64,000 nt of DNA from Chloroflexota bacterium (GCA_013112715.1 JABFGB010000002.1:1-64000); one strand, 5' to 3'. Positions 33,154 through 42,956 are shown, numbered from the stretch's first letter. A program made the numbers and translations. Notes: generated from the sequence alone by a model not told the origin.

Positions 33154-33328
33154 AATGATCCTTGTTTGAAAACTCTATCCATTGCATTTCTCACTATAAA
33201 GGACGTAGAGAGTAACCAAATAGTTTCATATGGGAAACCCATTGGTTAGAATGTTGTTGGGTGACTTGCAATCCGATGCTTCTTGGGGCATTCTTTAAGG
33301 TAAGCACAATTGTTCTGTGGGGCGATTT

Positions 33329-35728
33329 ATGGGGCGAAAAAATAAATCAATCGTGGTCGCGCGTGATTTTGAGAATGAAACGACCACGCCCATTATTCCT
33401 TTTCGCGCCAAGCCGATCCAGCCCTCTTCCGATTATGTGAGTTTACGCACCCGTTTGCTCGTCCCCCTGTTTGCCGTGATGCTGGTCATTGTGACCACCG
33501 GAGCCTATCTGGTATCACAAAATCTCATGCGCACACAGGAGGACGACGAGGTGCGGGATGTGCTGGTGCGAAGCCAGACCCTCTCCGCCCAAACCGCCCA
33601 AATTGGGGTGAAGATGCGGGAAGAAATCCGCCGTATCACGTTTACCAGCGGGGTACGGGAAAATGTTGCCGCACAGAACGGCCCAGCATTACAAACGTTG
33701 ATTGAACCCCTTGCCGAACTAGCAGCTTTAGACCTCGTGATCGTGACGGGAGCAGATTCACAAGAAATCCTCAGCCTACAGCGCGTCGAGATAGACGGGC
33801 TGGTGGATTATACGGTTGCGGAAAAGAGCGATGTTTCCGCCCTTGAACCCATTTTTCAAGCCTTGAGCCAGCAGCCGCGCAGTGGTTTTGTGCAGACCGG
33901 GGAAGGCGTGATACTGGTGACAAGTGGGCCGATTTTTAGCCCCACTGACCAGATGATGGGCATTGTGACGGTGGGTCGGCGGCTTGACCATGTGTTGACT
34001 TCGCTGGACAGCCCCTCAACCGAAAACTTGACGGTGTTCGCCGGGGATGGTCGTTTGTTGCGTACTACCCTGCCAGATAATGAGGCGGTTTTGAATGCGC
34101 TACATTTGCCACTGGAAACCGTAAACCAGACGTTGAATCTGGTGGGGCAGGTGCCAACAGAAAATATCACGCTCGATGGCGAACGCTATCAGGTGGCGTA
34201 TATCCCCTTTACCGTAGATACACAACCGATTGGGGTACTGGGGATTTATCAACCGACCTATGCCGCGTATAGCGGTGATATGGCCCGCCAATTGACCAGC
34301 CTCACCTTTGCAACCTTGACGGCAGCGATTCTGATTGTGTTCTATCTATTTACCGTGCGTCTGTTGAGTCGGGTTAATCGTGTTCGACGGACGGCGGAGG
34401 CGCTGGCAGCAGGTCAATTGGATGCTCGAAGCCGTTTGCGTGCCAATGATGAAATCGGGGTGTTGGGTGGGGCGCTGGACCATTTTGCGGATGTGATGGG
34501 GCAGCAGAACGATTTGATGGTTAAAAGTCTGCGGCGCGAACGACGTGAAAATGCACGACTGGCTGCGATTTTGGAAAGCCTGCCGGATGGCCTGATTGTC
34601 TTAGATAGTGATGGTCGGGTGTTGATGATGAATACGCAGGCGCGGAATCTGATTGGCGGCATCCGAACGTTACGCTCGGCATCGTTTCAGCAATTGACGG
34701 CGGCGACCACCGAGACGCTTGGGCCTGCCCTTGCCCCGGGGTTGTATGCGATGGGTCAGCCCGTGCCGGTACTGCATCAAGACCGCATTTTGGAGGCTCA
34801 GGTTGCCGCAATTGTGACCGTAACAGGGGGGCGGCTTGGAAAATTGGTCACGCTGCGGGACATTACTGAGACAGTGCAGCGAGAACAGCGGCATGAAGCA
34901 TTGGTCGAGAAATTGTCGGATGAGGTGCATCTACCCGTATCGCATGTGGCCCAAGACGCGGCTTTGCGGGCAGTGGATTTGCGCGGAACCCCGACGAGTG
35001 ATTCGCTGATGCTGTTTGCGCGGGAAATTGCACGGAACGCACGGGCGATGCAGCGGATTATTGGCGAACTGCGGGAATTGAATACGATTAATCGGCAGGA
35101 TTTGGAGCGGGGCCAAAGGGCGATTTTGTTGAGCGATTTGATCTGGCGGGTAGCGGCCCAATGGAAGAAGTCTGCAGCGGCAGCCGAGGTATTGCTAGAG
35201 GTTAAACTCCCTACGGAGACATGTTATGTCTTGGGGGATGAACGCCGACTGCGTTGGGCCATCGGGAATGTAGTAGATAACGCGATTAAGTATTCCCCAC
35301 CCAACAGCACCATTCAGATTACGGCGATTGAACAGGCTGAAAAAAGCACGGCGCTGATTCGGGTGGAAGATCAAGGGGTCGGTATTTTGGCTCAAGACCT
35401 GCCGAATATCTTTCAACGGTTTTATCGGGGAACCCCGACCCTGCCGGATGGCAAAGTTATTGAAACACCGGGGACGGGTCAGGGACTTTACCTGTCGCGC
35501 AAAATTGTGCGGACACATGGCGGTGAAATGACGCTCGAAAGCATTGCTGGGCAGGGCACGACTGTGGAAATGTCGCTGCCACTGACTTCGCCTGTGACAC
35601 TTGAGATGCCGGATGCCCATGAGATGACCGAGAAGCTCAAATTAGAGACCCGCGAGGTGGAACTGCTAAAAAAATGGAGCGCGGCGGAAAAGCGGGATGA
35701 AATAGAAAAAGTCGAACGGAACAAATAA
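33329..35728 (+). CDS. Membrane sensor histidine kinase with altered H-box
   Basis: 799 residues from the ATG at 33329; a GTG at 33317 adds four residues. The order is transmembrane helix (LFAVMLVIVTTGAYLVS), large extracytoplasmic sensor of about 270 residues, second helix (LTSLTFATLTAAILIVFYLF), HAMP, PAS-like segment (ILESLPDGLIVLDSDGRVLMM), dimerisation helices and an ATP-binding domain. The latter is complete: DNAIKYS (N box), EDQGVGI (G1), FQRFYRG (F box), GTGQGLYLS (G2). The H-box reads LSDEVHLPV where SHELRTPL is usual, so Asp531 replaces the phosphate-accepting His. It may lack normal autophosphorylation. No response regulator is adjacent; a TetR gene follows. Confidence 0.88.
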   Translation: MGRKNKSIVVARDFENETTTPIIPFRAKPIQPSSDYVSLRTRLLVPLFAVMLVIVTTGAYLVSQNLMRTQEDDEVRDVLVRSQTLSAQTAQIGVKMREEIRRITFTSGVRENVAAQNGPALQTLIEPLAELAALDLVIVTGADSQEILSLQRVEIDGLVDYTVAEKSDVSALEPIFQALSQQPRSGFVQTGEGVILVTSGPIFSPTDQMMGIVTVGRRLDHVLTSLDSPSTENLTVFAGDGRLLRTTLPDNEAVLNALHLPLETVNQTLNLVGQVPTENITLDGERYQVAYIPFTVDTQPIGVLGIYQPTYAAYSGDMARQLTSLTFATLTAAILIVFYLFTVRLLSRVNRVRRTAEALAAGQLDARSRLRANDEIGVLGGALDHFADVMGQQNDLMVKSLRRERRENARLAAILESLPDGLIVLDSDGRVLMMNTQARNLIGGIRTLRSASFQQLTAATTETLGPALAPGLYAMGQPVPVLHQDRILEAQVAAIVTVTGGRLGKLVTLRDITETVQREQRHEALVEKLSDEVHLPVSHVAQDAALRAVDLRGTPTSDSLMLFAREIARNARAMQRIIGELRELNTINRQDLERGQRAILLSDLIWRVAAQWKKSAAAAEVLLEVKLPTETCYVLGDERRLRWAIGNVVDNAIKYSPPNSTIQITAIEQAEKSTALIRVEDQGVGILAQDLPNIFQRFYRGTPTLPDGKVIETPGTGQGLYLSRKIVRTHGGEMTLESIAGQGTTVEMSLPLTSPVTLEMPDAHEMTEKLKLETREVELLKKWSAAEKRDEIEKVERNK

Positions 35729-39930: not shown

Positions 39931-40548
39931 ATGCGCAAGTATTTTCGAGCGACCTATGCGATGCAATTTGTGGCGGCACTGAGTTTATTGGTTGCGCTAT
40001 TTTTGCCATGGCATGTGCGGGGTGGAACGGCTATTGATTTAATTGAGCGGATATTTGACAATTTTTACTTCCCCTACAGTTTGGTTTCGCCTTGGGCTTT
40101 GTTGGCAATACTGCCGATTACCGCAATGGTCAGCATGGTACGCGGGGTAATGGGGATTATGTTTTATGATGAGGTGTTGTGGTACAAATTGGCATGGCGC
40201 TTGGGGTTATTTGCCGTTATTTCGATGGCGTGGTTTTATGCGGCGTTTGGTGTGGACGATGACTTGGCATGGACGCAGGTCAGTAATTTGCGAGTGGGGT
40301 ATTGGCTTACGGGATCATCGCTGTTGCTGTTGGTGGTGGTGCTGATTTTGGAGCGGATCATCCCCAAAGAAGACCCGGTACTTCAGCGATTGTCACGGTT
40401 GCCTCTGAATGACCCGGAGCGAATCTTGAGCGGCTACTATCGGGCCTGCCCTAATTGCTTGTCGCCGAATGACCCTAAAGCGCGGCGCTGTGTCAACTGT
40501 GGGGTTCTTTTATTTCCAGATATTCCGGATGAGGAGAAGTCAGGGTGA
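39931..40548 (+). CDS. Membrane protein with C-terminal zinc ribbon
   Basis: 205 residues. Four hydrophobic helices lie at about 10-27, 51-70, 88-107 and 123-142. The C-terminus has a CxxC-x10-CxxC zinc ribbon: Cys173, Cys176, Cys187, Cys190 (CPNCLSPNDPKARRCVNCG). GGAGG lies 10 nt before the ATG. No named family recognised. It starts a four-gene operon whose members overlap by 4-8 nt and which ends in a TIR-TM-FHA protein. The helix-plus-ribbon layout suggests a membrane-bound adaptor. Confidence 0.8.
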   Translation: MRKYFRATYAMQFVAALSLLVALFLPWHVRGGTAIDLIERIFDNFYFPYSLVSPWALLAILPITAMVSMVRGVMGIMFYDEVLWYKLAWRLGLFAVISMAWFYAAFGVDDDLAWTQVSNLRVGYWLTGSSLLLLVVVLILERIIPKEDPVLQRLSRLPLNDPERILSGYYRACPNCLSPNDPKARRCVNCGVLLFPDIPDEEKSG

Positions 40549-40841
40549 GTGAAATTGAGAAAGACCCAACTCAAGAGCAAGTGGCTGAGGGCAATCCGCC
40601 AGCATCCAACCCACCACAGGTCATTGTGCAGCAGGCTGTTATCAAAGGCAGCATGTTGGGTGGGGTGCTGCTGGTGTTGTTTGTGATCGGGGCCATCTTG
40701 GTCTATTTGCTGACAGGGGTAGTGGGCTGGGATAATGATTCCATCCAGATTATCTCGGCCATGTGTGTGGGGCCACTGTTGGGTTTAGTGGTATTTGGGG
40801 CGTGGGTATTGATCCAGCGAGGCAAGTCAGCGCATGGGTGA
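40545..40841 (+). CDS. Small membrane protein of unknown function
   Basis: 98 residues from a GTG that overlaps the previous stop (GTGA). An N-terminal hydrophilic part of about 30 residues (SEIEKDPTQEQVAEGNPPAS) is followed by two helices, about 38-56 (VLLVLFVIGAILVYLLTGV) and 68-90. No domain is recognised. Tight coupling with its neighbours suggests a membrane partner of the first and last proteins of the operon. Confidence 0.75.
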   Translation: MSEIEKDPTQEQVAEGNPPASNPPQVIVQQAVIKGSMLGGVLLVLFVIGAILVYLLTGVVGWDNDSIQIISAMCVGPLLGLVVFGAWVLIQRGKSAHG

Positions 40842-41754
40842 TTCATATTCATATGGGAATGGCAATGGGTCAACCCCACCCCAGTTGACCCAAGAACGAC
40901 TCAAAAAACGTGGGGGCAATCATCTCTCTTTTTTGCGTTGCCCGGTGGATGGAAGTGCATTAATCCAGACGGGTAGTGGATTGGTATGCCAACAAGATAC
41001 GGGGCATGTCTATCCACTCCAAGACGGGGTGTATCGGCTGGTGACACCCGAACAGGCCGTTGTTTTTAGTCAGCAGTCGGCGGCGATGACCCAGCAGTTG
41101 CAATCACAGGGATGGCTGCCGCCAAATGTAGATACGTTTCGGCAGTTACCCCAAACAGGATTGGCGGGGTGGCCCGCACCCTATTGGCAGCGACGAGCAA
41201 ATGTCACGGCGGAATTTTGGCGTATTTTGGAAGCGGCGCGGCGGGATGCTGAAATGCTGCCGATTGGTTCGATGGGGTATGCGTTGGATATTTCGGACAG
41301 CACAGGTTGGTTCGCCTACTGCCTCGATGTATCGGGTTTTAATACCATTGGGATGAGTCAGCATATTGGGGTATATGGGTTGACCGCGTATCCCTATGCA
41401 CGGTATTTGCGAGTGCAGACGGCGTGGGAAAGCCTCTCATTTAAAACCGGGGTGTTTGATCTGGTGGTGTTTAGTTTTAGCCTAGAGAAGTATGCTCAAC
41501 CTGAACGGGCATTACGGCAGGCGGCTGAACTGCTGCAACTGGGCGGTCATCTGGTTGTTATGGTGGATTTGCTAGATGATGGGTCGAATGGCAAGCCAGA
41601 TTTGGTTAGCCTAGCGGAGAAGGTGATGCGCGAGGTGGGTCTTGAGGTGGAGCGCCGACGGGTGATGCCGATGGGGAACCCCGTCAACAAAATTGCCCAA
41701 ACATTGCGTCGTGCCGATACGCCTGCGCTGGTGGTGGGACGTTTGATCACATGA
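40834..41754 (+). CDS. SAM-methyltransferase-like protein with degenerate motif I and zinc-like N-terminus
   Basis: 306 residues, overlapping the previous gene by 8 nt. Residues 33-62 resemble a Trm112-type zinc domain (LRCPVDGSALIQ, VCQQDTGHVYPLQDG), but one of the usual four cysteines is Asp39. The main domain has the class I methyltransferase order: YALDISDSTGWFAYCL in place of motif I, FDLVVFSFSLEKYAQPERAL for motif IV, and LLQLGGHLVVMVDLLDD after it. The glycine-rich loop (DxGxGxG) is replaced by ISDSTG, so AdoMet binding may be lost. Within the operon, it may be a non-catalytic binding partner, or have an altered cofactor. Confidence 0.65.
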   Translation: MGDSYSYGNGNGSTPPQLTQERLKKRGGNHLSFLRCPVDGSALIQTGSGLVCQQDTGHVYPLQDGVYRLVTPEQAVVFSQQSAAMTQQLQSQGWLPPNVDTFRQLPQTGLAGWPAPYWQRRANVTAEFWRILEAARRDAEMLPIGSMGYALDISDSTGWFAYCLDVSGFNTIGMSQHIGVYGLTAYPYARYLRVQTAWESLSFKTGVFDLVVFSFSLEKYAQPERALRQAAELLQLGGHLVVMVDLLDDGSNGKPDLVSLAEKVMREVGLEVERRRVMPMGNPVNKIAQTLRRADTPALVVGRLIT

Positions 41755-42923
41755 CCAGTCCCAAATTATTTCTCCTTTATGCGCCGATTGACGCAGAATG
41801 GGCGCAAACGTTTTATCAACAACTGCGTGAGGTCGGGTATACGCTGTATATGGAACCGCCAGAGAGTGACCCTGAGGATGCCACATTGCAGCGCAAAACC
41901 ACCGCCGCGTTACAAAAAGCCACGCATTTGTTGGCAGTGGTCTCCAAAGAAAGCGCGTTGGGGGATTCCGCCGCTGCATTTGAGGCGTGGTGGCGGCCTT
42001 TTTTGCGAACAGGGCGTCCGGTCATTGCGTGCATAGTCCCTGATGCACCCCCCGGGGCGGAACATTGGATGCCGTTTGATTTACTGCGTCAACGACGGGC
42101 CGATTTTCGAGAGCCGGACGGCATAGCACAGTTACAAAAATGGATTGGGCCTGCGCCGAGTGCTGCTAATGAGGGGTTGCCGATTTCAGAGTCATTATCC
42201 TCGCGGGCGGATGCGGCAAGTCGGGCGGCACGGCCTGAACCGACACCGCGTCCAATCGCTACCACCCCTCGACGGCCTCCAGCGCCCGCCAAGTCGAAAG
42301 TGGTGGAAGAGCCTCTACCCCCTCGACCGAAGCCCTCATTTTTGCGGATGATCCTGAATACGATTGGAATATTGATTGGGTTGGTACTGGTGGTATTGCT
42401 GCTTTTTGCCGCCTCGCAATCGGGCGACTCTGCTACCAGTCGGATTTCTGCTGAAGCATGGTTAGTCAGTTTGTTGATTGTGGTGGTGGCAGTTGCATTG
42501 ATTGGGCGAATTGTGACCCGGCGACAGCGCCGACAATGGCGACTTGAACAGCGGCGCCAGATGGCCCAGACCCGTGCCAAAATTGAGGCTGAAGAGCCTG
42601 CTAAAACACCGGAAGTTTATTTGGAGGTCATTCAGAGCAAGGCTAAACGTGATGTGGGGCAGATTTGGCCGATGGATGATTTTGCACTGACGGTTGGACG
42701 GGGGGTAAAGGTGGATGTACCGCTGCGAGACAGGGCAATTGCTAGGCGTCAATGTATGGTGTTTTTTGATGACGAGACAGGCCGCTATTATCTGGAGAAT
42801 TTGGATGTCCGTGAACGCACAGTGTTTTACGATAAGCCTTTGCTGCCGGGTGAGGTTGTGCCGATTGAAAATGGGGACATAATCCGGTTGGGGAAGTCGG
42901 TGGTGCTTCAATTCCGAGCATAA
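41751..42923 (+). CDS. TIR-transmembrane-FHA fusion protein
   Basis: 390 residues; the ATG overlaps the previous stop (ATGA). Residues 1-130 look like a TIR domain: KLFLLYAPIDAEWAQTFYQQL for the first strand and helix, ATHLLAVVSKESALGDS for the fourth strand, and AAFEAWW with Glu78 where catalytic TIR domains carry glutamate. A Pro-rich linker (about 140-195) leads to two helices (197-221 and 236-255). Residues 290-390 form an FHA domain (LTVGRG at 313-318, RYYLENLDV, IENGDIIRLG), although the conserved SRxH is AIARRQ. A TIR signalling or NAD-consuming unit tied through the membrane to a phosphopeptide-type module is unusual. Function is unknown. Confidence 0.7.
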   Translation: MTSPKLFLLYAPIDAEWAQTFYQQLREVGYTLYMEPPESDPEDATLQRKTTAALQKATHLLAVVSKESALGDSAAAFEAWWRPFLRTGRPVIACIVPDAPPGAEHWMPFDLLRQRRADFREPDGIAQLQKWIGPAPSAANEGLPISESLSSRADAASRAARPEPTPRPIATTPRRPPAPAKSKVVEEPLPPRPKPSFLRMILNTIGILIGLVLVVLLLFAASQSGDSATSRISAEAWLVSLLIVVVAVALIGRIVTRRQRRQWRLEQRRQMAQTRAKIEAEEPAKTPEVYLEVIQSKAKRDVGQIWPMDDFALTVGRGVKVDVPLRDRAIARRQCMVFFDDETGRYYLENLDVRERTVFYDKPLLPGEVVPIENGDIIRLGKSVVLQFRA

Positions 42924-42926
42924 ACG

Positions 42927-42956
42927 AAAAGGCCTGAGAAAACACATATCTCAGGC
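42927..42956 (-). terminator. Terminator after the FmdB-like gene
   Basis: GCCTGAGA (42932-42939) and TCTCAGGC (42949-42956) form a perfect 8-bp stem with a 9-nt loop. On the minus strand it is followed by CTTTTCG, so it serves the FmdB-like gene, and perhaps the convergent TIR operon too. Confidence 0.6.

Follow-up and report, generated by a model that had tools for sequence, protein, structure and literature searches.

The window analysed in this study is a 64,000-nucleotide stretch of a Chloroflexota bacterium (GCA_013112715.1, JABFGB010000002.1:1-64000), whose genome (G000) comprises 5.55 Mb in 76 contigs and holds 28 TIR_2 and 30 FHA matches. At 39931-42923 the plus strand carries four genes with successive overlaps of 4, 8 and 4 nt (Table 1), and three of the four products are membrane proteins. 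The four overlapping reading frames listed in a preliminary description of this DNA are present as claimed, and the domains assigned there are borne out by Pfam matches and hydropathy for all four products; the zinc-ribbon profile matches of gene 1 stay below threshold, with its cysteine pattern intact. The operon is flanked on one side by a gene for glycogen (alpha-glucan) phosphorylase and on the other by one encoding an FmdB-type zinc ribbon, both on the opposite strand, the latter followed by a gene for a large PMT/NHL membrane protein. A promoter and terminator scan of the operon gave no convincing candidate. Gene 4 is followed by a perfect 8-bp inverted repeat (42932-42939 / 42949-42956) that may serve the FmdB gene, because its T run lies on the minus strand.

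Table 1 Genes, domains and diagnostic residues of the operon, in window coordinates.
Feature	Position	Strand	Description	Evidence
Gene 1	39931-40548	+	205 aa; about four TM helices, C-terminal zinc ribbon CPNC...CVNC	Pfam, hydropathy, orthologues
Gene 2	40545-40841	+	98 aa, GTG start; small two-TM protein	hydropathy
Gene 3	40834-41754	+	306 aa; Trm112-like half-ribbon and class I methyltransferase-like fold	profiles, alignment
Gene 3 motif I	41287-41307	+	D152-I-S-D-S-T-G158 (canonical D/E-x-G-x-G-x-G); first and second Gly replaced by Ser	comparison with L091
Gene 3 Ser175	41356-41358	+	stands where canonical relatives have a beta-2 acidic residue for binding the AdoMet ribose	alignment
Gene 4	41751-42923	+	390 aa; TIR, proline-rich linker, 2TM hairpin, FHA	Pfam, hydropathy
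Gene 4 TIR domain	41763-42134	+	residues 5-128	Pfam, alignment, dN/dS
Gene 4 Glu78-Ala79-Trp80	41982-41990	+	Trp80 placed in the NADase glutamate column, Glu78 two residues before	hmmsearch, hhalign
Gene 4 membrane hairpin	42351-42518	+	two helices, residues 201-219 and 238-256	hydropathy, charge
Gene 4 FHA domain	42690-42893	+	residues 314-381	Pfam
Gene 4 Ala331-Arg-Arg-Gln334	42741-42752	+	replaces FHA S-x-x-H; RAQER here, Ser and His in the other FHAs of the genome	

Across 154 genomes of the order, the complete four-gene unit is found with the same flanks in all five species of genus g1, to which the window belongs, and four of the five retain the overlaps of 4, 8 and 4 nt. Neighbourhoods across the order showed no other genus with all four genes in this arrangement. 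The preliminary description had named a conserved order as support and genes lying apart in related genomes as grounds for rejection: the order stands within g1, and in g2, g4, g5 and family f2 the unit is broken and only parts of it are seen, which counts in part against its reading. In g2 (G028 and G029), genes 2, 3 and 4 occupy the same site and gene 1 is missing, and in G028 an opposite-strand peroxiredoxin-like gene lies between genes 3 and 4. The g4 genome (G031) lacks gene 4 and has genes 1-2-3 clustered at a different site. In g5 (G032) gene 1 is still beside the phosphorylase gene and genes 2 and 3 are gone; a short TIR-FHA gene (L076), from which the membrane hairpin and thus all TM helices are missing, lies at a separate site. 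Absences in g3, g4 and g5 weigh less, because these genomes are incomplete (69%, 80% and 81%, respectively).

Gene 1 orthologues, present in all five g1 species, are scattered and unlinked in other genera. Full-length relatives of gene 4 occur only in g1 and g2, both belonging to family f1, and none was found outside this family in 396 genomes of the class. In family f2 only genes 2 and 3 are linked, gene 1 homologues being unlinked; about thirteen f2 genomes carry a small two-TM protein, an intact class I methyltransferase and the gene 3 homologue, in that order, and locus L082 yielded a recognisable gene 3 homologue and neither of the other two. In both f1 and f2 a gene 2 homologue precedes gene 3, either immediately or with one gene between them, and genes 2 and 3 are the older core of the operon, reaching a second family. 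In the gene 3 tree f1 and f2 form two well-supported groups, which fits vertical descent. Viral contigs and plasmids were searched and yielded no relative of the operon genes.

Selection was estimated between the window and four congeners, saturated comparisons with L012 being omitted. The dN/dS ratio was 0.06-0.14 for gene 1, 0.22-0.34 for gene 2, 0.10-0.12 for gene 3 (0.07-0.13 in its core) and 0.07-0.12 for gene 4, within which it was 0.03-0.06 in the FHA domain, 0.06-0.09 in the TIR domain and 0.13-0.24 in the linker. All four genes are under purifying selection, and such low ratios mean that they are not decaying.

Gene 4 matches TIR_2 at 34.3 bits (cut-off 28), all eight gene 4 members match it at E <= 0.01, and a profile built from 16 TIR domains, half of them from the same genome and half from relatives chosen for likeness to the gene 4 TIR, scores 48 bits. 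Glu78 had been placed in the TIR active site; both hmmsearch and hhalign instead put Trp80 in the catalytic-glutamate column, which would be occupied by Trp in every full-length orthologue. In this register W81-R-P-F-L-R-T-G-R-P-V aligns without a gap to E-W-x-x-F-L-x-x-x-K/R-P-V/I. Furthermore, the F-I-S-Y-S motif reads F-L-L-Y-A in gene 4, and all full-length orthologues share F-E-x-W-W, Glu78 being conserved throughout. As a control, the catalytic column was read in all 28 TIRs of this genome: 19 have Glu there, and two of the nine without it (L008 and L167) may be misaligned. The gene 4 TIR is thus probably unable to cleave NAD; the conserved Glu78 could in principle stand in for the lost catalytic residue. 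Among the loci compared, the top-scoring relative of this TIR from another family is found in a 308-aa protein (L034:877-1803:-, G013); it is degenerate in much the same way, reading HQAW around the Glu position, and the protein has a membrane helix at its C-terminus.

FHA domains possess five typical residues, among which Ser, Arg and Asn contact the phosphothreonine peptide and His plays a supporting role (PMC4037201). The gene 4 domain (40.5 bits, cut-off 20.7) keeps G316 and R317 and has A331 for Ser, Q334 for His and E355 for Asn, which confirms the altered SRxH site (AIARRQ) reported earlier; in the alignment of the genome's FHAs it is also listed as lacking Gly, beyond Ser, His and Asn. 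It is the only one of the 30 FHA matches of the genome without Ser and His, and Arg317 is His or Lys in g2. Phosphothreonine recognition has therefore probably been lost. The loop between the two membrane helices is 18 residues long, and two helices with so short a loop would leave TIR and FHA on one side. By hydropathy and charge this would be the cytoplasmic side for both domains, at variance with the initial view that they are joined across the membrane.

Gene 3 scores above cut-off against Methyltransf_11 (28.7 bits, cut-off 21.2) and Methyltransf_23, and weakly, under the cut-off of 22, against Trm112p (20.0 bits). The "broken glycine loop" described for this methyltransferase-like protein is confirmed: motif I reads ALDISDSTG in the window, ALDISDGMG in L012, AVDLSDGMG in g2 and AVEFTGEMG in g4, compared with VVDLGAGNG in the distant, canonical L091 and mostly AVIGAGMG in f2. 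The first Gly is lost in g1 and g2, and the second in four of the five g1 species. After beta-2, L091 has AVDLL, f2 AIDSR and f1 GMSQH or VVSED (GMS / VVS / IVG), so that the beta-2 acid is lost throughout f1. The Trm112-like cysteines are partly lost in g2; gene 3 still has Asp152 and the last Gly of motif I as well as the beta-4 region. Loss of the motif-I Gly and the beta-2 acid makes AdoMet binding by f1 gene 3 doubtful, and the protein is probably a pseudo-methyltransferase. Moreover, the intact methyltransferase adjoining the gene 3 homologue in f2 suggests that gene 3 could be a non-catalytic partner; the best matches to this enzyme in f1 were only 25-31% identical, and no counterpart was assigned among them. 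The f2 loci L077-L090 (e.g. L086:11134-13303) offer a candidate enzyme/pseudo-enzyme methyltransferase pair with a two-TM protein. The f2 gene 3 loci also adjoin large secreted PPC/laminin-G-like proteins, some with an L,D-transpeptidase-like gene, and at L079, L081, L083, L085 and L088-L090 the gene 3 homologue is succeeded by a tandem run of about four to ten related genes that are acetyltransferase-like.

AlphaFold2 models were poor (pLDDT 45 for gene 3, 43 for gene 4) because the alignment, made of five closely related sequences, was shallow, and the residue losses are therefore read from sequence alignment. Foldseek with the low-confidence gene 4 model gave a best E of 0.49, and a sequence search of the PDB returned only weak FHA and general methyltransferase matches. 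In PADLOC-DB genes 1, 2 and 4 had no match and gene 3 a single one at chance level (E 0.047). The window also encodes, at 33317-35728, a protein of 803 aa whose match to a PADLOC candidate (PDC-M43B, 30 bits) is weak and unrelated to the operon. TIR and FHA are mentioned, each on its own, among the effector domains of vWA conflict systems (PMC7159879). In the literature covered, no description of the operon or of TIR-TM-FHA proteins was found.

Joining TIR and FHA across a membrane segment had been called unusual; the pairing as such is not unusual in this order, in which FHA-FHA-TIR and FHA-TIR proteins are widespread: both domains occur in one chain in at least about 45 of 154 genomes, counted by eye from rows spanning both. 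Among 33 distinct proteins of this kind that were fetched, in most of which the TIR comes after two FHA domains (L190-L217 among the examples), only four have the catalytic Glu, the other 29 showing Ala, Gln, Ser, Met or His. The four of 33 with Glu contrast strongly with 19 of 26 among the TIRs of the window's genome that lack FHA (Fisher p ~2e-6, a value that overstates the contrast because the sequences are related), and the 29 of 33 TIRs without Glu point to non-enzymatic TIRs in the company of FHA. As judged from their sequences, these proteins, whose FHA domains are mostly canonical-looking, probably make up a class of TIR adaptors without enzymatic activity. One of them (G000:C1:51852-52910, L184; 353 aa, FHA then TIR) is encoded in the same genome, unlinked to the operon, and has full-length relatives in eight of the ten f1 genomes, the same eight as gene 3. 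The TIRs of these FHA-TIR proteins are not the nearest relatives of the gene 4 TIR, whose fusion to FHA is therefore probably separate in origin.

On balance we consider it fairly probable that the operon encodes a complex of pseudo-domains, anchored in the membrane and passed on by vertical descent, that serves as a scaffold or adaptor and not as an NADase. Beside the gene order, domain content, residue losses, purifying selection and phylogenetic range observed here, we infer that catalysis and ligand binding have been lost and that the products assemble into one complex. Gene 4 would be anchored by its two-helix hairpin with TIR and FHA in the cytoplasm, where the two domains would act as protein-protein docking surfaces without NAD cleavage or phosphothreonine reading. 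The gene 3 product, as a probable pseudo-methyltransferase, would dock to the gene 4 complex, in keeping with the intact methyltransferase encoded beside its f2 homologue, and genes 1 and 2 could contribute further membrane and zinc-ribbon parts. Precedent for such an assembly role comes from the membrane-bound FHA domain of PrgH/YscD, which has no working phosphothreonine site and functions in assembly (PMC3635987). The peroxiredoxin gene that splits genes 3 and 4 in G028 leaves some doubt about a physical association of the four proteins.

Other readings of the locus deserve consideration. Gene 3 might encode an active methyltransferase whose AdoMet pocket deviates from the norm, genes 1, 2 and 4 merely placing it at the membrane. 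We regard this as unlikely: the Methyltransf_11 match above cut-off, the retained Asp152, last motif-I Gly and beta-4 region, and the core dN/dS of 0.07-0.13 would suit an enzyme, but they have to be set against the change of the first motif-I Gly to Ser in g1 and g2, the loss of the second in four of the five g1 species and of the beta-2 acid in all f1, the eroded Trm112-like cysteines of g2 and the intact f2 neighbour, which suggests that gene 3 is non-catalytic. It appears distinctly unlikely that the four genes are functionally unrelated and share a promoter through a genus-level accident of adjacency. Four of the five g1 species retain the overlaps, linkage of genes 2 and 3 extends across two families, and three of the four products are membrane proteins, even though the set disperses outside g1 and genes 1 and 4 are gained and lost independently.

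An active membrane TIR NADase, gated by the FHA domain, triggered by stress or phage and using Glu78 as a catalytic residue displaced by a local insertion, is disfavoured, and we hold its probability to be low indeed. The hmmsearch and hhalign results, obtained with 16 neighbouring TIRs, leave Trp80 in the catalytic column, and WxxFLxxGRPV is gapless in that register; Glu78 falls in the column only in one MAFFT alignment, with two mis-oriented rows. The TIR_2 match above cut-off, the conservation of Glu78 in all full-length orthologues and the abundance of TIRs in the genome (28) agree with a NADase, but the altered F-I-S-Y-S motif does not. Furthermore, the phage-defence role once suggested finds no PADLOC model and no viral or plasmid relative in its support, and the housekeeping-type flanks and vertical inheritance are unlike those of typical defence genes.

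Bacterial TIR domains are now usually taken as NAD-consuming enzymes. The strong selection on the operon domains, together with the loss of the catalytic Glu from most of the wider TIR+FHA set, argues for a non-enzymatic, adaptor-like bacterial TIR, of whose use the scaffold proposed here would be a compact membrane example; it also cautions that not every TIR operon is a defence system. A far more speculative extension, to which we give very little credence at present, is a bacterial network of non-enzymatic TIR adaptors, in which soluble FHA-pseudo-TIR proteins such as G000:C1:51852-52910 would read phosphothreonine and dock by TIR-TIR contacts onto gene 4, in the manner of animal adaptors on their receptors, with the gene 3 pseudo-enzyme in the complex. 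The idea stems from the occurrence of this FHA-TIR protein in the same eight of ten f1 genomes as gene 3.

Compared with known systems, gene 4 shares a TIR domain, recognised by sequence, with bacterial TIR NADases (Thoeris ThsB, SpbK and others), from which it differs by the Trp assigned to the catalytic-glutamate column and by an operon devoid of defence partners. Like the FHA-FHA-TIR and FHA-TIR proteins of the order, it has both domains in one chain, and theirs is a TIR mostly without Glu; in those proteins, however, the domain order is reversed, no membrane hairpin was seen and the FHA domain is canonical in those read. Gene 3 resembles Trm112-type and RlmA-like class I methyltransferases, with an N-terminal half zinc ribbon preceding the methyltransferase fold, but has lost the AdoMet-binding residues in its f1 branch. 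A membrane segment followed by a C-terminal FHA domain recalls FhaB/FipA (NCBIfam NF049868), although residues 239-385 of gene 4 score only 28.2 bits, far under the 125 bits of the equivalog cut-off; in FhaB a TIR is missing and the phosphothreonine site is retained. With regard to PrgH/YscD, secretion genes are absent from the operon and the Yop-YscD_cpl match is weak (five of eight gene 4 members, best E 6e-5, the window protein below cut-off), but gene 4 has in common with these proteins a membrane-anchored FHA fold whose phosphothreonine site has, to judge from its residues, been lost.
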